Positions 6,577 through 49,071 of a DNA stretch of 64,000 bases are shown here, in pieces. The stretch is from Selenobaculum gibii (GTDB lineage: Bacteria > Bacillota > Negativicutes > ICN-92133): the NCBI RefSeq assembly GCF_030273445.1, contig NZ_CP120678.1, forward strand, positions 2,519,501 through 2,583,500, given 5' to 3'. Each line of letters starts with the position of its first letter. Position 1 is the stretch's first letter. The position numbers and the translations under genes are program-made. The notes below the pieces were generated by a model. That model saw only the letters and a list, made by a program, of their open reading frames with translations. It did not search any database and was not told the origin of the DNA.

Positions 6577-8367
6577 CTAAACTTTATATTGCTCAATTCC
6601 TTTAATAAAATGCTGCGTCATCTTTTTAAATTCCGTGATTTTTTCCATCATGTCATGCAATTTTTCATTATAAACATGTACAGATGCGCTAACTTCCTCT
6701 GTAGCCGCAGAATTCTCTTCTGAAATAGCTGCAATTGACTCAATTTTGCTATAAACAGCATGAATTCCCTGCATCTCTTGCTCAAGCTTATCAATCATAT
6801 CCACAATGTTATCCGAAACTCCACGAACATTTTTTAAGCACCGCATATTATCGTCAACCACGCCCATTAGCTGACTACTTTCCTGCGCTAGGACTTCATA
6901 CTCTGTATCGACATGGCGCACAACGTCTTCAATTGTATGCGTAATCACCTGAACATCCGCAGAAATAATTTTTGACTGTTCTTGTGACTGCTCTGCTAGC
7001 ATTCTAACCTCTTCGGCAACAACGGCAAAGCCCTTGCCTTGTTCGCCCGCCCGCGCTGCTTCAATAGCCGCATTTAGCGCTAAAAGATTCGTTTGTCCCG
7101 CAATAGATGCAACGGTGTTTGTGATCATTGTGATTTTTTTCGCTTGCGTACGCAATCCCTCTACAGATTGTTTTACCAATGCAAAATTGTCCATGCTTTC
7201 ATTAAGTTTATTACTGGAATTTCTTACATTTGAAAATCCATGATCAATTTCTAGAACAGCCTCTTTTAGCTGTTTATTATTTTCAATTTGTTCTTTAACT
7301 ACATCTTTAAAGGTTTCAATATTCCCATTTAAAATTCCAACTGCTTCGGTTGTATTTTCAGCCTCATGCATTGCTGAAGCCGCTACGTCATTTACCACCT
7401 TTGTGATTTCATCAGAAGTCCCACTCATCTTCTCCGCTAAAGCATTAAATGCATCGCCATATCTATCTAGTTCATCCCCCGTCCCTTTAAATCCAGTAAA
7501 CTCACGACGTATTGTTTGCTTATATGTATTGATTTTATTTCCTATCCGCTCAAAAGCATCACCCGTTTTTATCTGCATTAAGGAAGAATACTGATGCTGT
7601 AAGAGTTGATCCACCTCATTTTCAATATCCTGTAACGGACGTGCAACCAACCAACATCCTATAAATGCCGCTAAACCTGCTGGCAAAGCTGCCCATAAAG
7701 GAATAGAATTCGTCAAAAACTGTAACGGTAATAGTGCAATAAATGCAATTGCCACTGTCAATAATCCACATTTCGAAGCTAGCCCGGGTAAAAATTTTAA
7801 AGCATAATTCATTTCATATGCTTTTATACGATGAATCTCATAGGGAAAGCGAAGTTTCAATTCTAACTCTTCACGTTCCTTTTTCAACACCGTAATCCCA
7901 ATCTTTTCATTATAATGCTGTGCTGCGCCTTCTAAAAGCCCCCGAAAATAATCGAACATCGCTCGCTTTGATTTATAACTAAAAATCGCTTCATTTCCTG
8001 AAACAACATGCATTCTCAGATCAGGCGGCTTTGCCCCAGGAATAATCCGCATAACTTCAATATGTACATCATACATAGATTCTAAAAAGGCATACAAATT
8101 ATTTCGTTGAAAAAAAGCCGGATATGCTTCAAAAAAAGTTTTTATATTATCTTTCCCTATTGCATGCCATACATCACTTATTGGCAAGCTCATCTTTTGT
8201 GAAATTAAATGTATCATTTTTTGAGGTATGTGATCCTCTATATCCTCCGTCGGTAAAAAGACATGATCTGATCCATAGCCAATTTGTCGCAAAACTTCAC
8301 TAACTAGACTTTCTCCCCATAACTTTCTTGCTGTACGTACCCATGTTGCTACAATTGTCCCCTTCAT
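6577..8367 (-). CDS. H-NOX (heme gas sensor) methyl-accepting chemotaxis protein
   Basis: 596 residues. Residues 1-185 form an H-NOX domain with the proximal heme ligand His102 (YDVHIEV) and the YxSxR motif at 131-135. Trp9, Asn74 and Tyr140, the distal triad that holds O2 in the Thermoanaerobacter H-NOX, are all present at the same numbering. Two membrane helices (about 190-245) follow, then a HAMP-like linker and a cytoplasmic signalling domain with the hairpin core [20 protein letters not shown]. It is inferred to be an aerotaxis receptor steering an anaerobe away from O2. The ribosome site is GGAG, seven bases before ATG. Confidence 0.93.
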
Positions 8368-8404
8368 TCTTTCACTCCATTCTGACTAAGCATCCATTTC
8401 CTAA

Positions 8405-8433
8405 ATTATACACTTTTCTTTCTCATTCGTAAA
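8405..8433 (-). promoter_or_regulatory. Promoter of the H-NOX chemoreceptor
   Basis: Minus strand TTTACG, 17-bp spacer, TATAAT. The -10 is perfect and the -35 matches 4 of 6. It lies 38 bases upstream of the start codon. Confidence 0.55.
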
Positions 8434-8478
8434 TAAGAATTATTATTTATAAAACGTTATTTTATTATATTTTTTAAA

Positions 8479-8943
8479 TTAACAACTTTGTTCTTCCAGC
8501 TTTAAATGCAAAATAGGAAAAGCCCTCCCCTGTTCATCTAGTTCAGACCTACTTTCTACCTTAAATCCAACACTAAGATAAAACTCATATGCTTGCGGAT
8601 TCTGCTCATTGACATCTACGCTCGTTACCTTGCATTTACGAATCGCATAGTTGACTAGCCCTGTACCAATTCCGCGTCTGAAAAAATCGGGATGAAGAAA
8701 CAGCATCTCGATTTTTTCTTTTTCTATTCCCATAAAGCCAACCACCTTAGTATCTTGACTTTGTACTATAATTAACGTTTCAATTCCCATGATCCCCATC
8801 TTTACATAAGGGATTAACTCATAAACATCTTTTTCTGTTAAAAACAAATGCGTTGCTTCCACGGATTTCTGCCATACTTGAAGCAACTCACAAACTAACT
8901 TTTCATCTCGTTTTTTTACTTCTTTTAAATGGTATTCGTTCAT
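8479..8943 (-). CDS. GNAT-family N-acetyltransferase
   Basis: 154 residues. It shows the GNAT core: LIIVQSQDTKVVGFMGIEKEKIEMLFLHPDFFRRGIGTGLVN carries the acetyl-CoA pyrophosphate loop (RRGIGTG), and NPQAYEFYLSVGF is the usual C-terminal motif. The start at 8943 is preferred over 8976 because GAGGAG lies six bases before it and the gene then begins just after the cdd stop. It is probably the last gene of the deoC-pdp-cdd operon. The acceptor substrate is unknown. Confidence 0.85.
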   Translation of the reverse strand: MNEYHLKEVKKRDEKLVCELLQVWQKSVEATHLFLTEKDVYELIPYVKMGIMGIETLIIVQSQDTKVVGFMGIEKEKIEMLFLHPDFFRRGIGTGLVNYAIRKCKVTSVDVNEQNPQAYEFYLSVGFKVESRSELDEQGRAFPILHLKLEEQSC

Positions 8944-15169: not shown

Positions 15170-16035
15170 TTAAAATTCTAATACTGTAATATTAACATCA
15201 GCAAAATTTACTCTTTCATTCGTACAATTGACTAACGCTAATTTCTTCTGATGATTCCCCGTTTGCACAATTGCTGTACCCGCTAAAGTTACATAATCTT
15301 TACAACATCCCATCGTCTCTGTACTCATACCTGGATATATCCTATCATCTACTAAAAATTTTACTGCAATATCCTTAGAACATCCATGGCTGCAAATCGT
15401 AGCAGTAATATTACAATTAATTAAATATGATTTATGGGCCGCCAAATGAATAATCGGTTGCCCTTCCGTATGCTGAATAGATGTACCTCTTTTTACCACA
15501 TTGTTTTCTAATGGTACTAACTCACGGGCTTCTACAGAAATGCACTCTAAGCTATTGGCAAATAAATAATCATGCTCACAATCTTTACCTGTAGGCCCTG
15601 TGGATCCGGTAGCTCCGGTGGCTCCGGTAGCTCCTGTGGCTCCTGTTGCTCCTTTTGCTCCGGTTGCACCTGTTGCTCCTGTAGCACCTGTTGCTCCTGT
15701 TGCTCCTTTTGCTCCGGTTGCCCCTGTTGCACCTGTTGCTCCTGTAGCACCTGTTGCTCCTGTAGCACCTGTTGCTCCTGTAGCACCTGTTGCTCCTGTT
15801 GCTCCGGTTGCTCCTGAGGCTCCTGTAGCTCCTGTAGCACCTGTTGCTCCTGTAGCTCCTGTGGCACCAGTGGCTCCTGTAGCTCCTGAGGCTCCTGTTG
15901 CACCGGTGGCTCCTGTTGCTCCTGTAGCTCCTGAGGCTCCTGTAGCACCTGTAGCTCCTGAGGCACCTGTTGCTCCTGTAGCTCCTGAGGCACCTGTTGC
16001 TCCTGTTGCTCCTGTTGCACCGGTGGCTCCTGTAG
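15170..16035 (-). pseudogene. C-terminal fragment of a collagen-like GXY surface protein, cut off by the prophage
   Basis: The minus strand reads about 148 residues of Gly-Ala-Thr/Ser triplets, then a 138-residue Cys-containing C-terminal domain (starting KDCEHDYLF, ending NITVLEF) that may be a jelly-roll like those capping BclA-type filaments. There is no proper start: the open frame continues upstream only through six codons made of the target duplication and phage DNA, beginning with TTG at 16048 and without a ribosome site. The nearest ATG (16070) is in another frame. Joined to the fragment at 47023-49071 the frame is continuous, so this is the severed 3' part of that gene. Confidence 0.88.
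16031..16035. repeat. Prophage target-site duplication, left copy (TGTAG)
   Basis: TGTAG here and at 47023-47027 are the only bases shared at the two junctions. Five base pairs is the duplication made by Mu-type transposition. Confidence 0.88.
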
Positions 16036-16058
16036 TATAAGCGCGCAAATAGTTCCGG
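16036..16058 (+). repeat. Left terminal inverted repeat of the prophage
   Basis: Starts TATAAGCGCGCAAATAGTT. It matches the inverted right end at 15 of 23 positions. Confidence 0.7.
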
Positions 16059-40078: not shown

Positions 40079-40183
40079 CTACTTGAATAGCAACCTTTTC
40101 ACCCAACCAATAAATCCTTTTCGCCTAGCTCCCATATGCAAATTTTCTATACTATAGCCGTTTTTCGTAAGTTTCTTCATCAT
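40079..40183 (-). CDS. 34-residue basic micro-ORF coupled to the B ATPase
   Basis: Reads MMKKLTKNGYSIENLHMGAR and ends WVKRLLFK. Its ATG overlaps the ATPase stop (ATGATGA), so translation could be coupled. Strongly basic. Only position and coupling support it. Confidence 0.45.
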   Translation of the reverse strand: MMKKLTKNGYSIENLHMGARRKGFIGWVKRLLFK

Positions 40184-41115
40184 ACGCTGATAATCACTTT
40201 CTTAGCTGAACGTATATGCTCAATTGCTATAGCTTCCTTACATTGATTTGCAATTGTCCAAGCAAAAAGAAATAATTTGACCATGATTCTAAATGCCCCA
40301 ATAGAATTTGCCACCTTGTAAAGCTCGTTTAAACAATCTTCGTCAAGCTCAACTCCATTTTGCAATACAATTGCCTTTACATCTTCCATTTTTACCTTCA
40401 TATCTAACGCAATTCGTACTGCACGACTGAAAAATTGACCAGTGATTGTTTTATTTCGTTCTGTAATACTTTCCATAATTGCAGGATTTCCAACTAAAAC
40501 AAGTGGACATTTCGTTGCATCATAGATACGTCTAAGCGTTTCAAGTCCATCTAAGCGTAAAAAATGTGCTTCATCAATGAGAATCGGTCTATTTGTATTT
40601 TTAAGAATAGCAATAATGTTCTTTTCAAGGCTTTTATTACGACCTTCAGCTTTTTTATTGAGAGCTTCCAATATTTCTTCCATCACATCACGACCACTGC
40701 GAATATTAGGACTTGCAGTGAAAAATAAGCTATTAGGATTTTCCGCAACCCATTTATTTATCGTCACTGTTTTTCCAATGCCTGGCGCACCGTAGATTAC
40801 AATTACATCATTTCTATCATTTGCATATTGAAGACCAAACCACATTTCTTTCATCACTGCCGTCACTACGCGTTCAGGTTCTTTTACCGAAAACACTGCT
40901 TCTTTACGTGTTTCCTCAATTCCAAGCACTGCCATAATCTTTTTCGCTACATTTTCAACGCGTCCATGGTATTTATTTGCTAAGAAACTAGATAATGAAC
41001 CGCCTGAAATTCCTGCCATCTTAGCAAATTTCTCCTGAGAAATTTCTTTATGCATATCTAAATAAGCATTCACTTTTTCTATGATGATAGAAATATCTAA
41101 CTCTTGATTTTCCAT
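40180..41115 (-). CDS. Transposition ATPase, MuB-like
   Basis: 311 residues. An N-terminal helix-turn-helix (SQEKFAKMAGISGGSLSSFLANKY) precedes the AAA+ domain with Walker A (VIYGAPGIGKTVTI) and Walker B (RPILIDEAHFL). It selects target DNA and activates the transposase, and gives target immunity in Mu. It starts one base after the transposase stop. Confidence 0.93.
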   Translation of the reverse strand: MENQELDISIIIEKVNAYLDMHKEISQEKFAKMAGISGGSLSSFLANKYHGRVENVAKKIMAVLGIEETRKEAVFSVKEPERVVTAVMKEMWFGLQYANDRNDVIVIYGAPGIGKTVTINKWVAENPNSLFFTASPNIRSGRDVMEEILEALNKKAEGRNKSLEKNIIAILKNTNRPILIDEAHFLRLDGLETLRRIYDATKCPLVLVGNPAIMESITERNKTITGQFFSRAVRIALDMKVKMEDVKAIVLQNGVELDEDCLNELYKVANSIGAFRIMVKLFLFAWTIANQCKEAIAIEHIRSAKKVIISV

Positions 41116-41116
41116 A

Positions 41117-43081
41117 CTAAAAATCCCCTTTCCGCTTTTCTATTTTTGCCTTTGCCATAATCTCAAATGGATTTATATCATCCGTTCCTGTCGCTTTCAT
41201 TGCCCGAACTGCCTCTCTACCTGCTTGCGGTAATGGAACCATTTCAACAACTTTATTTGGTGTAACATCAGCAGCAATATTGCCATATAGCTTGTAAAGT
41301 TCAGTAATATCAGCCGGTGCAAGCGGTTTTACTTTCTTTGTCGCTTGATAAGACGGATGATTTAACACTGCTTTTTTCTCAATTGCTTTACGTGCCATTT
41401 CCGCGCCCAATACTTCTTTATCTGCATTAATCGCAGCTATCGCCTCAATTCTATTTGCTTCACCCAAATATTCATCCTTCGTTGTATATAACCAAATCTT
41501 ACTTAAATCTTCCTCACGATACCGCACGTAAACAGCTTGTCCTTTTTTGAGAATCGAATCTTTTAAGTAGTATTCACTACCTTTGAAGGCAACACCGTTA
41601 CGTCCAATCTTGAATGGATTCGTTGATTTCATGAAAAATAACCGCATTACACTTGGATCAGCTGTACGCATTGGAAGTCGCGTCCGCATAAAGGTTGCAT
41701 CTGGACATTCCCCTTCACGCCCTTTACCTTGCGAAACCTGTTTATTTAGTACGTTTTTCGCCCAATCATTAAAGATTTGCTTGAACTCATCCAAGCTAAC
41801 TCCGTATTTTTTCGGCTGTTTGAGTTTCTTTTCTAAATCGTCAGGACGCTCTTTTGCATTACGTCCGCAATAGGTCGGAAAAGGCTTGGAAAACCATTCG
41901 ACAACGTTTCTAAATTCACGTTCAACTACTTTCGCCCTTGCATTTTCAACTATGGCAAAATGCGTTTTTACTTTTAGTCGTTCCATGAGCGTTGCCGTTC
42001 GTTTCCCTTCTTCGATCAGCAATTCCTTATCTTCTTCGGTTAGCTTTTTCCCCCGATTGCCCCGGCCTGCAAATTTATGCGAACAATAATCACGTCCGTT
42101 ATCTATATAGATATCTCGTGGCAAGCCAATCGCTGGATCAAGTGCAGCATTTGCAAAAGCTGCAATAATTTCATCCGTGCATGGGGAAAGATTTACCGTC
42201 CAGCCAACTAGCTTCCGACTTCTCATATCCATCCAAGCCGTCAGCCAAGGTCTTGTCCATTTTGGCTTTTCAACTGAACCTGTATTAATAAATAAATCAA
42301 ACACATGATGATCACCGACAAAAACCTCACCTGCTGAAATGCTTTCATAGTCACGCTGCGTATATGCTTGGCTGTTATCATAGAAGTTCTTTTCTCCGAA
42401 GCGTTTGAGTCTGCGAACCGCTTCGGGAATATCCTGCTTTGCCATGCGTGCTACCGTCTTCAAAGAAGGAATCTCCCAGCTTTCTTTTTTCGCTTCAAGT
42501 TCAAGTAACCGATAACAAAAACCAATACTAGGTCTTGTTAGTTGTAGATACTGTCCGCAGAAAAAATCCCATGCGTTAGCATCTATTGCCCGTTGCTCTT
42601 TTCGCTTGCCGTAGCCTGTGAGTAGTCCCATCAAGCCATCTTTTTTATATTGACGACCCCAATTATACAGCGTTGATTTAGATATCACTTCATCTGGATG
42701 CGCTTCGTTCCACACCGTTACAAAGTTGTCCGTCAATACCGTTTTCTTACCAGCCACGGCGATATATGCTTCATATTGCTTTAGAATTTGATATCTACGA
42801 TTTGCTATATCTCGTTGCCACTGCGCCGCAGTATCATATTCGTTTGATACTACGCGTTCTGGTTCATCAATTAGCTTATTAGCTACCATATACTTAGTTT
42901 GTGCTTCAAGTTTCAAGCTAGATAGTGCTATTTTAGCTATTTGTCCGCTTTTTCCACCCCGTACCCCCTCAACATATTGAACATTTTCATATTTTCCTGA
43001 CGAAATATTCTTTTGAACAGCCCGCTCGCTTATCCCAAGTAATTCAGCAGTTTCAGCTGTATTTAAAAAGTATTCAGCCAT
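41117..43081 (-). CDS. Transposase A, MuA-like
   Basis: 654 residues, close to Mu A (663). The N-terminus is a winged helix (TAETAELLGISERAVQKNISSGKYENV), then further DNA-binding domains and the DDE core: Asp in EVFVGDHHVFDLF, Asp in DIYIDNGRDYCSHKF and Glu in KVVEREFRNVVEW. A Mu-type C-terminal beta-barrel follows. It carries out integration and replicative transposition. Confidence 0.95.
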   Translation of the reverse strand: MAEYFLNTAETAELLGISERAVQKNISSGKYENVQYVEGVRGGKSGQIAKIALSSLKLEAQTKYMVANKLIDEPERVVSNEYDTAAQWQRDIANRRYQILKQYEAYIAVAGKKTVLTDNFVTVWNEAHPDEVISKSTLYNWGRQYKKDGLMGLLTGYGKRKEQRAIDANAWDFFCGQYLQLTRPSIGFCYRLLELEAKKESWEIPSLKTVARMAKQDIPEAVRRLKRFGEKNFYDNSQAYTQRDYESISAGEVFVGDHHVFDLFINTGSVEKPKWTRPWLTAWMDMRSRKLVGWTVNLSPCTDEIIAAFANAALDPAIGLPRDIYIDNGRDYCSHKFAGRGNRGKKLTEEDKELLIEEGKRTATLMERLKVKTHFAIVENARAKVVEREFRNVVEWFSKPFPTYCGRNAKERPDDLEKKLKQPKKYGVSLDEFKQIFNDWAKNVLNKQVSQGKGREGECPDATFMRTRLPMRTADPSVMRLFFMKSTNPFKIGRNGVAFKGSEYYLKDSILKKGQAVYVRYREEDLSKIWLYTTKDEYLGEANRIEAIAAINADKEVLGAEMARKAIEKKAVLNHPSYQATKKVKPLAPADITELYKLYGNIAADVTPNKVVEMVPLPQAGREAVRAMKATGTDDINPFEIMAKAKIEKRKGDF

Positions 43082-43186: not shown

Positions 43187-43678
43187 TCACTGTACATCAC
43201 CCCGCAAACCATTCCATTCATTTGTAAGTTGACGCTTCTTTTTTTGTATCGCCTTTTCTGCCTGGGACAATCGCCCAAGTTCTAATAGATAGATTTCATC
43301 TGATTTCACCATTCGTCCACCCGATGCAGAAACTAAGATATCCAGCATGGTATAGTCCTTCGTTATCTTGCAAAAAATCGGGAAGTATTCGGCAGGCATC
43401 CGATACCCTTCTTTTGATTCTGCCGTATAGGCATTTAGCATACTTTCTGTTATCTCCATGCCCAAGTATTCTGACATTCTCCCTGCAATTTCATATCGCT
43501 TTAACCCGCAGTTTTTAATTGCTTCTGAAATTGCATCCTTTATCCGTAAGCCCAACGGCTTAGTTTCTTTTTGATAATCTTCTTTAGCAAATTTTTTAGG
43601 ATTGATTTCTTCAATCATTTCAAATAAATTTAGCTGATTTTCTTTAGCCACATCTATTTTTGTTTTACGTTTTGCCAT
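43187..43678 (-). CDS. Phage early protein of unknown function
   Basis: 163 residues from the ATG at 43678. The middle (KPLGLRIKDAISEAIKNCGLKRYEIAGRMSEYLGMEITESMLNAYTAESKEGYRMP) suggests a helix-turn-helix-like domain; the C-terminus is a basic helix. It is regularly found near ner in Mu-like phages, but I cannot name its role. Confidence 0.65.
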   Translation of the reverse strand: MAKRKTKIDVAKENQLNLFEMIEEINPKKFAKEDYQKETKPLGLRIKDAISEAIKNCGLKRYEIAGRMSEYLGMEITESMLNAYTAESKEGYRMPAEYFPIFCKITKDYTMLDILVSASGGRMVKSDEIYLLELGRLSQAEKAIQKKKRQLTNEWNGLRGDVQ

Positions 43679-43982: not shown

Positions 43983-44084
43983 ACTACCACCTTCTTATTA
44001 AAATTTTCTTTGCTATCCACTCTACTCCATCGAACTTTTTATATGCGTACTATTTTCTACCTATAATTATATTTGGAGAATAAA

Positions 44085-44744
44085 ATGAAAACAGAATCAA
44101 AACCTACAAAAATTAAACTTCCACCCGTCAGATTAGACGTTGAAACCTTGTTCAACATTGAAGAACTTGCAAATAAATACTACAAAAAAATAACATTCAA
44201 ATTAGAGAATACAACTCATACATATTCTTTTAACTCCATAACAGAGATAAACTCTATAAAAGACTATCGTTTTCACAACATGTATATCACTTTTGATGAA
44301 TATCCTCATCCAATATCAATTAATCTTTCTAATTTACATGGTGAAATTATCATCTCTACAGATTCACCCCAAGACTTAGGTACAGCTGCAAAATTGAAAG
44401 CATTATTCACCGATACTTCTTCAATATTTATAAAACTTCTTTATCACAATGAAAGTATAATTTTTATACCTCTACTTTTTGCTTGTTTGTCTTTAATTTC
44501 TTGTTATCTATTTTTTTCTACACAAACCATAATCTCTATTTCATCATTCGTATACTTACTAACTACGATGATTATCACTATAAAGACTGTAAAATTTCCC
44601 AATTATTCTATAATATATATTAGAAAAAAGCCTCTTACTTTTATGCAACTTATAAAAATAGAGAAGAAAACATTAATAATATATTTTATTTTTCCTATAG
44701 TAATTGCAGTACTTAGTTTTTTATTGGGCAAACTTTTTAAATAA
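44085..44744 (+). CDS. Cargo membrane protein of unknown function
   Basis: 219 residues from the ATG at 44085 (GGAG seven bases upstream). A soluble N-terminal part of about 125 residues is followed by three or four hydrophobic helices (SIIFIPLLFACLSLISCYLFF; IISISSFVYLLTTMIITI; TLIIYFIFPIVIAVLSFLL). It is oriented against the phage early genes. It is very AT-rich. The module position between repressor and ner suggests lysogenic cargo. Confidence 0.65.
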   Translation: MKTESKPTKIKLPPVRLDVETLFNIEELANKYYKKITFKLENTTHTYSFNSITEINSIKDYRFHNMYITFDEYPHPISINLSNLHGEIIISTDSPQDLGTAAKLKALFTDTSSIFIKLLYHNESIIFIPLLFACLSLISCYLFFSTQTIISISSFVYLLTTMIITIKTVKFPNYSIIYIRKKPLTFMQLIKIEKKTLIIYFIFPIVIAVLSFLLGKLFK

Positions 44745-44910
44745 AATTTTTTAGCATAACTACTATAGCCCAAGAAATAATTATTGATATTAATGGAATA
44801 ATTATAAAAAAACTAATAAATTCCTCACTGGTTTGTAAATATTTAAAATCTGAACCAATCCAAGAAAAACTACAAGAAACTAACCACATAAAAATTATTT
44901 TTTTTAACAA
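44737..44910 (-). CDS. Small cargo membrane protein
   Basis: 57 residues from TTG at 44910, chosen because AAAGGTG lies six bases upstream. Two hydrophobic stretches (KIIFMWLVSCSFSWIG; FISFFIIIPLISIIISWAIVVML). It converges on and overlaps the end of the larger membrane-protein gene by eight bases. Confidence 0.5.
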   Translation of the reverse strand: MLKKIIFMWLVSCSFSWIGSDFKYLQTSEEFISFFIIIPLISIIISWAIVVMLKNFI

Positions 44911-45034
44911 ATGTATCACCTTTCCAAAACTTTAACTTACACTTCCATACATTCAACAACCCCCAATTTTTAAACCTACCGCCGACACAAATTTCACTCT
45001 AATTTTTTGCCCGTAGATGTAAAAATTCAGAAAG

Positions 45035-45733
45035 GTGCTGATTGTCATAGAATATATACAAGATAAAGAATTTTTTCATATCAGCGTACCAAAATTTTAT
45101 TCTCAATTTCCAGAATGGTCTCTTAATGAGACTCGATTTATTGGGAAAACTACTAATCCCTTTTTTTCTTATTATGATAAAACAAGCTATCAAGTTCTAG
45201 ACAAAACCAAGACTACTGCTTATCCATTTAATAAAATTGCAAATGTAATGAATGAAATTATATCCGGACGAACCCAAATACCACATGATTTACCGAACTT
45301 TTATCACTGCAATCCCAATCGCTGTTTTTCTGAACTTTACAGTTATTTCAAAGATTATCTACTCTTAACGAGGGAATGGATATATGAAGAAGTACGGAAA
45401 GAATCGTTTCCACATCTACCTTCAAGGCAAAAAGGCCTTTGGGTTATTCCTATAAACGAAAGTCTTAAAGCTTCCTTAACCTTCTGGGAAAAAAACCTAG
45501 TCTCTAATGAAAATGCTAAATTTTTAAAATTAAAATTAACTGGAAAATTACACTTAACTAGTGAAGAGTTTCTTTTAAGTGACTCACTATCTTTAGATCA
45601 ATTTCGACAAACTGCATTTAAATACTGGCTTGGTTGTAATAATCCTAAAAATCCAGAACAATTAGAATGTATTTTTGAAGGTTTTGCCTCTGTAACCCAT
45701 ATCTATGACTCCCTAGAAGAAATTAATTTTTAA
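45035..45733 (+). CDS. Soluble cargo protein of unknown function
   Basis: 232 residues. The order of motifs (KTTNPFFSYYDKTSYQ; LYSYFKDYLLLTREWIYEEVRKESFPHLPSRQKGLWV; EFLLSDSLSLDQFRQTAFKYWLG) is reminiscent of DUF2441-type proteins, which may have an ADP-ribosyltransferase-like fold; this is a tentative impression. The start is uncertain: GTG at 45035 or a downstream non-ATG codon after AAAGGTG. It lies in the cargo block beside the repressor. Confidence 0.65.
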   Translation: MLIVIEYIQDKEFFHISVPKFYSQFPEWSLNETRFIGKTTNPFFSYYDKTSYQVLDKTKTTAYPFNKIANVMNEIISGRTQIPHDLPNFYHCNPNRCFSELYSYFKDYLLLTREWIYEEVRKESFPHLPSRQKGLWVIPINESLKASLTFWEKNLVSNENAKFLKLKLTGKLHLTSEEFLLSDSLSLDQFRQTAFKYWLGCNNPKNPEQLECIFEGFASVTHIYDSLEEINF

Positions 45734-45743
45734 TATTAATTTC

Positions 45744-45905
45744 TTAAACACTATGATTATTGTTAGAAATATCTGTCCGTTTTAAAGCTTCTTGAAAAGA
45801 TATCGATGGTTTATTTTCCATCTCTACTATAACAGGCAGAATCTGTTTTATAACTTCCGCAGTAATCAACGATGCAATTTTTACAATTCTATTTTCTTCT
45901 ATCAC
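45744..45905 (-). CDS. Small phage protein near the repressor
   Basis: About 53 residues from GTG at 45905, preceded by GAAGGG. Sequence IEENRIVKIASLITAEVIKQILPVIVEMENKPSISFQEALKRTDI; helical, no recognised domain. It is the first gene downstream of the early promoter. A longer TTG start at 45944 has no ribosome site. Confidence 0.45.
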   Translation of the reverse strand: MIEENRIVKIASLITAEVIKQILPVIVEMENKPSISFQEALKRTDISNNNHSV

Positions 45906-46109: not shown

Positions 46110-46138
46110 ATTCTACTCTAATATATGAGTAAAGTCAA
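46110..46138 (-). promoter_or_regulatory. Phage early promoter
   Basis: Minus strand TTGACT (46138-46133), 17-bp spacer, TAGAAT (46115-46110), near consensus. It overlaps both operators, so the repressor would block it. Confidence 0.65.
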
Positions 46139-46153
46139 CTCTTTTATATGAGT
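46115..46153. promoter_or_regulatory. Two repressor operator-like dyads (ACTC-N8-GAGT)
   Basis: ACTCTAATATATGAGT at 46115-46130 and ACTCTTTTATATGAGT at 46138-46153: same arms, centres 23 bp apart (about two helical turns). They cover the early promoter and the region just upstream of the repressor start. Confidence 0.7.
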
Positions 46154-46165
46154 GAGGTGATTTAT

Positions 46166-46576
46166 TTGCAAATTACAAATGAAAATAAGATTATAATAGA
46201 TAGGATTCGTGATTTACGTATAAAAAACGGACTATCCCAAGCTAAATTTGCTCAATTAATTAATGTATCATCTGGCAATGTAGGTTCATGGGAAACATAT
46301 AAAACTCTCCCCGGTGCTATTGCTTTAAAAAACATTGCTCTAAAATTAGAGTGTTCGTTAGATTGGCTTATATTAGGCAATGAAGAAAAAAAACTTATTT
46401 TACCAGAACAAAAAAACGAGGTCATTTTCGACCCCGAGCTAAAGCGTATGATAGACATTTTAAAAGAATTAATGACAAATGAAAATCCACATATGAGAAG
46501 TTGGGCAATTATCCAATTTGAAAAAGCCTTCTCCGAAGTTTGTGCAACTTACGACGAAAAAAAACAACACGCTTAA
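46166..46576 (+). CDS. Phage repressor, XRE family
   Basis: 136 residues from TTG at 46166, chosen because GAGGTG is correctly spaced and the ATG at 46148 lies within an operator. The helix-turn-helix is RDLRIKNGLSQAKFAQLINVSSGNVGSWETYKTLPGAIALKNIALKLECSLDWLI. The C-terminal part is short, unlike autocleaving LexA-type repressors. It maintains lysogeny as Mu c does, divergent from the early genes. Confidence 0.87.
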   Translation: MQITNENKIIIDRIRDLRIKNGLSQAKFAQLINVSSGNVGSWETYKTLPGAIALKNIALKLECSLDWLILGNEEKKLILPEQKNEVIFDPELKRMIDILKELMTNENPHMRSWAIIQFEKAFSEVCATYDEKKQHA

Positions 46577-47022
46577 TGCTTTTTCTGTACAACAAAATAG
46601 ACAGACCCGCCCCGCCTATCTTCAATTAATTAAATAATATATTACATAAAAGTAAAAATAAAGTGGTTCGTCAATCAGTCTTGCTAAAAATGACTTTAAA
46701 TCCTTGTTCTGCCTAGCTTTATCCACATTTTATAAAAGTTCGTCAATAGGTTCGTCAATTGACTTATCGTGTGCGCATGTAGTGTACACGTTTTTTTATT
46801 TTAAAAGCCTTTGAAAGCAATTCCGAAGGGCATTTGAAGGTTTTGAAAACGACAACTTTTAAAAAGCCGAAATTATCCCCAAATGTTTTTCAAACGACTT
46901 TTTCCAAAACTAACTTGCTGAACTTATCCACACGAAAAAATCCCCATCAAGCTAGATAAAACATGATGTCTCGGGTTATCCCGTTTAATCCCTGTTTTTC
47001 CTAAACTAAATGGGGTGTTATA
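46577..47022. other. Non-coding phage end with GTTCGTCAAT repeats
   Basis: 446 bases without a gene between repressor and phage end. GTTCGTCAAT occurs at 46666-46675, 46738-46747 and 46750-46759. The last 23 bases form the right terminal repeat. Transposase end-binding sites are expected here. Confidence 0.5.
47000..47022 (-). repeat. Right terminal inverted repeat of the prophage
   Basis: Minus strand starts TATAACACCCCATTTAGTTT, matching the left end at 15 of 23 positions. Confidence 0.7.
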
Positions 47023-47027
47023 TGTAG
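47023..47027. repeat. Prophage target-site duplication, right copy (TGTAG)
   Basis: Second copy of the five bases at 16031-16035. It lies within the GXY-repeat coding sequence. Confidence 0.88.
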
Positions 47028-49071
47028 CTCCTGAGGCACCTGTTGCACCTGAGGCACCTGTTGCTCCTGTTGCTCCTGTTGCTCCTGTTGCTCCTGTTGC
47101 ACCGGTGGCTCCTGTAGCTCCTGAGGCACCTGTTGCACCTGAGGCACCTGTAGCACCTGAGGCTCCTGTAGCTCCTGTTGCACCTGTAGCTCCTGAGGCT
47201 CCTGTTGCACCTGTAGCTCCTGTTGCACCTGTAGCTCCTGAGGCACCTGTTGCTCCTGTTGCTCCTGTTGCACCGGTGGCTCCTGTTGCTCCTGTTGCTC
47301 CTACACCTGTAGCACCTGTTGCGCCTGTAGCTCCGGTAGCACCTGTTGCGCCTGTAGCTCCGGTAGCACCTGTTGCTCCTGTCGCACCTATACCTGTAGC
47401 GCCTGTAGCTCCGGTAGCACCTGTTGCGCCTGTAGCTCCGGTAGCACCTGTTGCGCCTGTAGCTCCGGTAGCACCTGTTGCGCCTGTAGCTCCGGTAGCA
47501 CCTGTTGCGCCTGTAGCTCCGGTAGCACCTGTTGCTCCTGTACCCGTTGCACCTGTTGCACCTGTTGCCCCTGTTGCGCCTGTCGGTCCAGTGGGGCAAA
47601 TTGTACAAATCGAGTTTATAACAATAGTATCAACTGAATTACTTACTGTCGTAATATTTCTAATATTTCCTTCTACATCTCTAAACTTATACTGGAGTGC
47701 TCCCGTATTTTCAATACTTGTTCCATTTTCGACATTATCATTGATTGTCGCCCGAAACTTAATTGTAACTGATTTATTCGCCTCAACATCGGCAATTTTA
47801 ACTCCAGATCCAATTATTCTTTCATCGGCCTGCAAATTATTAACGATCAGAGAATTTTTTTCAATTGTAAGATAGCTTGGAAGTTGATCTTTAAATTCTA
47901 CGTTTGTCAAAACTTGATTACTTGTGTTTTTAAAAGTAATTGTATATGTTAATACATCTCCTGGTTCGGCAACTACTTTGCTTACCTTTTTATCAATACT
48001 TATAACCGGGGTCCCTTCTAATTCATAAAGTCTTATATCATCAATTAAATAATCATTCCCATTCGCTGGTCCACCTTCACTAATAAAGCTTACTGTTAAG
48101 GATTTATGATCACCACTATTAAACATTGCTCCCACCTGCTTCCATGTTGGAATTTTCGTTGTACCTAAATCGTTATTTAATAACTGATCGAACAATGCAG
48201 TTGCTCCCTCTACCAATACACGTAATTGTGGTAACACCTGCCCCTGCCTTGAATCAACATTCATCACCCATGTTGAAAATACATAATCGGTATTTGGCCT
48301 AACATTAACATTTGCGGTAAATATATATTGCTTTGGATAACTTCCATTGACAATCATCATTCGCCCATTTTCATCCCCAGTAGTATGGTCAGCAACATTA
48401 AACCAGGTACGAAAATTTGTATTTGTTATTATATTAGCAATTGAATATTGCCCATCTGTCGGATACCCAGTTTGATAACGAACATAACTAAAGTTTGTTT
48501 GAAAATCATTATATGGAGGATTTAAAGTTGGTTGACTAGTTTGCACCGCTGTCCCATTTGCTAATGCCCCAAAGGATCCATTACTACCCGCTTTAATTAA
48601 ATTATCACCAATTGTTACATAATGATTTAAATCTAATTCAATATCCTGCGCAGGTGCATCGACAAATTGAATGTTTGTAACATTACTAAAAGCAACCGAT
48701 ACATAAACAGTATTTGGAGATAGAGAATTTACCCGATTCGCTTCACTTGGCGGCGATGTTATAGTTGCTATTGCAGGATCAGCTGGCGTAACTATAATCT
48801 TCTGCGCATTGCCCCAATCTCCACTGGTAGATATCGTTCCCATATAACTAGCAGCTTCTACCACACGGTACTTTCCTTGTGGTACAGAAGTAAATTTGAA
48901 TTTTCCCGAACTATCTGTTTTTACAACGATTCCCTTCCCCTCAAACGTACCGATGACAGTTTTAGTCCCCTCAACTTGCAATGCAACAGGTATATTTTTT
49001 ATTGGCTGATTTCCCGATAATTGACTGGGCTGACTATTGATGTTAAACACAATACTCCCTGATATATCCAT

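Follow-up and report, generated by a model that had tools for sequence, protein, structure and literature searches.

The interval between the repressor and the Ner-like gene of a Mu-like prophage, located in the window analysed here (the whole 64-kb stretch of DNA), very probably holds swappable accessory (moron) cargo, and the longest gene within it encodes a protein of the DUF2441 family, classified with the ADP-ribosyltransferase fold, for which a part in the exclusion of other phages can be tentatively proposed. From the end of ner (43982) to the repressor frame (46148) the block measures 2165 bp with 29% G+C and comprises four frames on alternating strands, the two long genes on the repressor strand (+) and the two short ones on the early strand (-) (Table 1). 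All of them lie where the first-pass annotation had placed four frames between the repressor and the Ner-like gene, and the end point which it gave to the block is GTG 45905, one of two possible starts of the small early-strand gene (53 aa from this codon, behind AAGGGATGAT, or 66 aa from TTG 45944). The start of the 219-aa gene is an ATG preceded by the ribosome-binding site TTGGAGA, that of the 57-aa frame a TTG preceded by AAAGGTGAT. When the 2165-bp interval was shuffled 1000 times with dinucleotides preserved, the longest frame reached a median of 62 aa and at most 156 aa; the observed 232 aa exceed this maximum and the long cargo frames are thus not a product of chance. The earlier description of the genes as AT-rich is borne out by G+C contents of 26.1, 19.9, 31.0 and 29.9% for the 219-, 57-, 232- and 66-aa genes, as compared with 36.1% for the whole prophage. 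The same annotation had regarded the proteins as unrecognised, which holds for the 219-aa protein, with no family match in Pfam, PHROGs, PADLOC or NCBIfam, but not for the 232-aa protein, identified here as DUF2441. PADLOC models matched none of the four cargo proteins, and a DNA-level search of the cargo region against the phage collection returned no match.

Table 1. Features of the early and control regions of the Mu-like prophage (window coordinates).
Feature	Position	Strand	Basis or remark
MuB-type ATPase	40180..41115	-	family match and comparison with relatives
MuA-type transposase	41117..43081	-	family match and comparison with relatives
phrog_2345 transcriptional regulator, early operon	43190..43678	-	PHROGs E=3e-33
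Ner-like regulator, 65 aa	43785..43982	-	Pfam, PHROGs, NCBIfam
219-aa protein, soluble N-terminal part and transmembrane segments	44085..44744	+	ORF list, hydrophobicity
57-aa hydrophobic small protein	44737..44907	-	convergent with the 219-aa gene, slight overlap
DUF2441 (BC2332-like) protein, 232 aa, soluble	45035..45733	+	Pfam, profile, fold match
Small early-strand gene, 66 aa	45744..45944	-	ORF list; 53 aa if GTG 45905 is the start
Putative early promoter and candidate operators	46110..46153	.	promoter overlaps two tandem palindromic sites
Putative early promoter TTGACT-17-TAGAAT	46138-46110	-	consensus match; best minus-strand promoter-like site
Repressor, HTH_3, DicA/RstR-like	46148..46576	+	Pfam, PHROGs, NCBIfam

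The element that carries the block is a complete-looking Mu-like prophage of 30,987 bp (16036-47022). It is flanked by a 5-bp target duplication, TGTAG (16031-16035 and 47023-47027), and its flanks, when joined in silico, give a single 969-aa collagen-like open frame. Family models recognised MuA and MuB domains, an HTH_3 repressor and a Ner-like protein, and the combination of MuA/MuB, the 5-bp duplication and divergent repressor and ner genes places the element among the Mu-like (transposable) phages. Its termini read TATAA...TTATA (16036-16040, 47018-47022), with terminal dinucleotides TA...TA in contrast to the TG...CA ends of Mu. The gene split by the insertion is a collagen-like (GAT-repeat) gene (15170-16035 and 47028-49071), so that at this site the lysogen has no uninterrupted gene for that protein. 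The repressor itself may be translated from an alternative start, TTG 46166 behind GAGGTGAT.

To check for swapped cargo, as the first-pass annotation had suggested, the same repressor-ner interval was compared in five Mu-like relatives, every one of which has other genes there or none, so that the contents are not constant and the cargo genes of the window prophage recur in none of them. Two relatives have a short interval devoid of genes (L009, 122 bp; L028, 219 bp), L025 carries a single 132-aa gene on the repressor strand within 752 bp, L026 a 153-aa gene and a 106-aa gene within 1.2 kb, and L027 two Bro-N genes plus small frames within 3.1 kb. The flanking regulators are conserved, with identities to L025 and L026 of 44% and 56% for the repressor, 45% and 41% for Ner, and 74% and 58% for the phrog_2345 regulator. 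Since the contents differ in five relatives between conserved regulators, the repressor-ner interval is a swap site, and together with the deviating composition of its genes (20-31% G+C vs 36%) it has the features of a moron region. The earlier reading of the block as cargo is thereby upheld: it is AT-rich, absent or replaced in all five relatives, and has its two long genes on the repressor strand, which makes the accessory nature of the block the well-supported part of our account. As for the cargo of the two nearest relatives, the 132-aa (L025 9496-9894) and 153-aa (L026 6968-7429) proteins are distantly related to each other (37% over 81 aa) and represent an orphan family on the repressor strand of the interval, without a family match above a cut-off. 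Early-strand frames of 63 aa, unrelated, occupy the place of the 66-aa gene in both L025 and L026.

The 232-aa protein is a member of DUF2441 (Pfam PF10386, E=1.4e-8, 35.3 bits against a cut-off of 25) and also matches phrog_9842 (E=8e-22). A three-sequence profile retrieved PDB 2AUA (BC2332 of Bacillus cereus, E=2.9e-12), and structure prediction, advocated for this protein in the first-pass annotation, yielded an AlphaFold model (pLDDT 74, pTM 0.71) which Foldseek matched to the same structure with E=7.5e-10, probability 1.00 and TM 0.66. A structure of the family has been available since 2005. Pfam places DUF2441 in the ART clan (PMC7955679), the SCOP code d.166.1.6 'BC2332-like' stands among the listed ADPRT families (PMC3000352), and ProFunc template matching related 2AUA to the NAD+-site residues of ADP-ribosylating toxins (PMC3024214). 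An ADP-ribosyltransferase fold is assigned to the 232-aa protein through this published classification of DUF2441; Foldseek gave no significant match to ADP-ribosyltransferases other than DUF2441 (RES E=1.9, cholera A1 E=3.6), and Pfam no RES domain match. Across six diverse sequences H15 and E211 do not vary, nor do S130-R131, W136 and Y197-W198. H15 is located in the first predicted strand (6-17) and E211 at the beginning of the last (210-224), an arrangement which, in the model, suits the H...E pattern of the ADP-ribosyltransferase superfamily, and conservation marks H15, S130/R131 and E211 as candidate active-site residues. In the six-sequence alignment the closest relatives that were found are 26-41% identical to the protein; it has in common with the DUF2441 family and 2AUA the sequence family, the fold and the invariant residues, and it differs in some 45 inserted residues (at roughly 52-98), absent from two Pectinatus copies and from the viral contig L035, and in its residence in a Mu-like prophage. 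Our search of the literature found no demonstrated activity for any DUF2441 protein.

DUF2441 is rare. Of 381 genomes in the class it was found in 3, counting the window's own genome and one whose match falls below the curated cut-off; it was found further in one other genome among 200 of the phylum, and in one phage, deposited twice, among 50,697 phage records. With the 232-aa protein as the sole query nothing was found in the viral contigs and genome contigs; an alignment query recovered one viral and one genome locus from these same contigs, the six-sequence alignment being too diverse to be used for such a scan. A Pectinatus haikarae prophage (L036) bears two copies near its repressor, on the strand opposite the early genes, a viral contig (UViG, L035) has the gene after the integrase, Cronobacter phage phiES15 between Rz and the terminase, and a further one is found on a Pseudomonas plasmid. 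These positions are typical of accessory genes. Use of DUF2441 in lysogeny only is not general, because the phiES15 copy stands among late genes on the lytic strand. The two Pectinatus genes (8001-8555 and 10161-10700 of L036) are different from each other; their ribosome-binding sites and start regions are nearly identical. In phiES15 a putative protein kinase and a serine/threonine phosphatase (L034 4997-6516) lie a few genes before DUF2441. A 92-aa frame with the C-terminal part of DUF2441 alone, just downstream of an IS21-like transposase pair in a further genome of the phylum (L046 6773-7051), is probably a remnant.

How this cargo might be switched is suggested by the control region. The putative early promoter lies beside the repressor and is overlapped by the tandem palindromic sites ACTCTAATATATGAGT and ACTCTTTTATATGAGT, which may be taken as putative repressor operators; the palindrome ACTCTNNNATATGAGT has just two exact matches within the window, both at this promoter. 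TTGACA-type sites occupy the same position in L025 and L026, next to their repressors. Shuffled sequence yields at least as many matches to the promoter consensus as this region does. The 219-aa gene is the sole cargo gene with a good promoter-like site (TTTATA-18-TATAAT, 44038-44067), and no clear promoter was found upstream of the DUF2441 gene. From the early promoter a single lytic transcript would cover both short early-strand genes and continue into ner-A-B, antisense to the 219-aa and DUF2441 genes. Being on the opposite strand, these two would be free to be expressed in the lysogen, in which the repressor shuts the early transcript, and would come under antisense transcription on induction, which would help to silence them. 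We infer further that in the lysogen the DUF2441 protein would use NAD+, either to transfer ADP-ribose to a target or by hydrolysing it, and that this would lead to the exclusion or abortion of infection by other phages or otherwise be of benefit to the lysogen. The 219-aa protein is plausibly the product of a separate, unrelated accessory gene that also serves exclusion. The whole account, i.e. independent lysogeny cargo, an antisense switch and NAD+-using exclusion by the DUF2441 protein, is offered as a serious possibility that falls a little short of being probable, and the NAD+-dependent exclusion by this protein with a little more reserve. That DUF2441 represents an undescribed class of prophage-borne ADP-ribosyltransferase exclusion effectors, antisense-switched here and accompanied by the 219-aa protein as a second exclusion protein, is a bolder proposition which we think rather improbable.

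Independent lysogeny cargo with an NAD+-using exclusion effector is favoured because of three precedents. In the transposable phage Fc02 two control-region genes, one on the repressor strand and one on the reverse strand, each exclude superinfecting phages (PMC9936078), prophage ADP-ribosylation systems were proposed by Iyer et al. to abort superinfection during lysogeny (PMC9503650), and CmdT is an ADP-ribosyltransferase able to stop a phage (PMC11618068). The Pseudomonas phage Fc02 (olg1/gene 10) is also alike in layout, a transposable phage whose repressor-ner region carries additional genes on either strand, and has repressor-strand transcription in the lysogen, as we would expect of the prophage described here; however, its repressor-ner gap is 106 bp, with olg1/olg2 overlapping ner and gene 10, whereas the cargo here takes up 2.2 kb (PMC9936078). 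CmdTAC (PMC11618068) and RES-Xre resemble the present case in an effector of the ADP-ribosyltransferase fold in defence or addiction, but no antitoxin or chaperone partner was recognised in our block, nor any RES or PADLOC match. The Mu-like phages of P. aeruginosa have nine regions of genomic plasticity, in which low-G+C accessory genes are swapped at fixed places as they are here, although both the phage group and the cargo are different (PMC4378225). For a transposable phage to carry accessory exclusion genes in its control region is hence nothing new in kind. The members found here are new, since the literature yielded neither a tested function for DUF2441 nor a paper tying it to phage conflict.

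Phage-borne ADP-ribosyltransferase toxins are classic conversion genes, which counts for a lysogenic conversion of another kind, with the DUF2441 protein altering host physiology or hitting competitors rather than phages. The resemblance of the 2AUA site to ADP-ribosylating toxins by template matching (PMC3024214) speaks for this as well; yet inspection of the window frame showed that it starts right at the domain, with no obvious secretion signal or delivery domain, and the moron-like placements of DUF2441 suit phage-phage conflict at least equally, so this reading strikes us as unlikely. The cargo genes might otherwise be decaying or idle passengers without present function, in keeping with orphan neighbours, the missing clear promoter and a non-standard DUF2441 start. 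Both Pectinatus copies have a TTG or GTG start nine bases behind the ribosome-binding site; in the start region of the window gene (45035-45050) the position used by these relatives has ATA (45047), and the in-frame GTG 45035 overlaps the ribosome-binding site, for which reasons the gene may be poorly translated. Judged from these letters, weak translation, a rare start codon or decay under way may each apply. Nonetheless, for DNA of 29% G+C the two long frames have stayed open much further than chance would allow and the DUF2441 protein retains the family-invariant residues, and we hold the loss of function to be quite unlikely.

ADP-ribosyltransferase toxins are known in the toxin-antitoxin systems RES-Xre and CmdTAC, and on this ground an addiction-like unit can be imagined with the DUF2441 enzyme as the toxin and, as its antidote, either a small neighbour gene or the early transcript running antisense. 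A small opposite-strand gene does lie downstream of DUF2441 in the window, in L036 and in L035; but these neighbours look unlike each other on inspection and, being on the opposite strand, do not form a two-gene operon, which renders such a unit decidedly unlikely. No RES-Xre was detected in the window genome by family search.

The first-pass annotation had seen in the two long genes a membrane effector paired with a soluble sensor or enzyme. They are adjacent, on the same strand and both AT-rich, which speaks for a two-gene defence or exclusion system, but an opposite-strand gene lies between them and the 219-aa protein stands beside none of the five other DUF2441 genes (two in L036 and those of L035, phiES15 and the Pseudomonas plasmid). 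The 219-aa protein consists of some 120 soluble residues followed by three hydrophobic segments (about 122-145, 148-168 and 192-218), and searches of phages, plasmids, viral contigs and about 600 genomes turned up no credible relative. Without co-occurrence, we rejected the pair as a single system and consider it very unlikely. Having its own good promoter-like site and its own ribosome-binding site, the 219-aa gene fits a stand-alone gene, and the cargo genes are better regarded as separate units. Three genomes gave weak matches to the 219-aa protein (E 2e-4 to 8e-4), which were set aside as noise because the matched stretches are mainly hydrophobic and interrupted by two to five stop codons; a model predicted from the single 219-aa sequence proved unreliable (pLDDT 53, pTM 0.36).

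A role in lytic takeover of the host, as played by the T4 Alt/Mod ADP-ribosyltransferases of the same fold class, would accord with the late-region copy of phiES15, but it is highly improbable given that takeover enzymes are expected early or packaged and that DUF2441 is antisense to the early transcript in the window and L036.

For the preferred reading, exclusion of other phages by an NAD+-using DUF2441 protein, the recurrence of this family as cargo of mobile elements (twice in Pectinatus, in the Mu-like prophage, in the UViG and in phiES15) leads to the hypothesis of a function in phage-phage conflict, for the testing of which DUF2441 genes offer compact constructs. Likewise, in Mu-like phages of this bacterial class the stretch between repressor and ner is a place to seek more accessory genes.

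Apart from the operator pair and the GGTTCGTCAAT triplet, the direct and inverted repeats of the region have the look of chance matches in AT-rich DNA. Three copies of (G/A)GTTCGTCAAT lie between the repressor and the left end (46665-46759), and are possibly sites for the transposase or a host factor.
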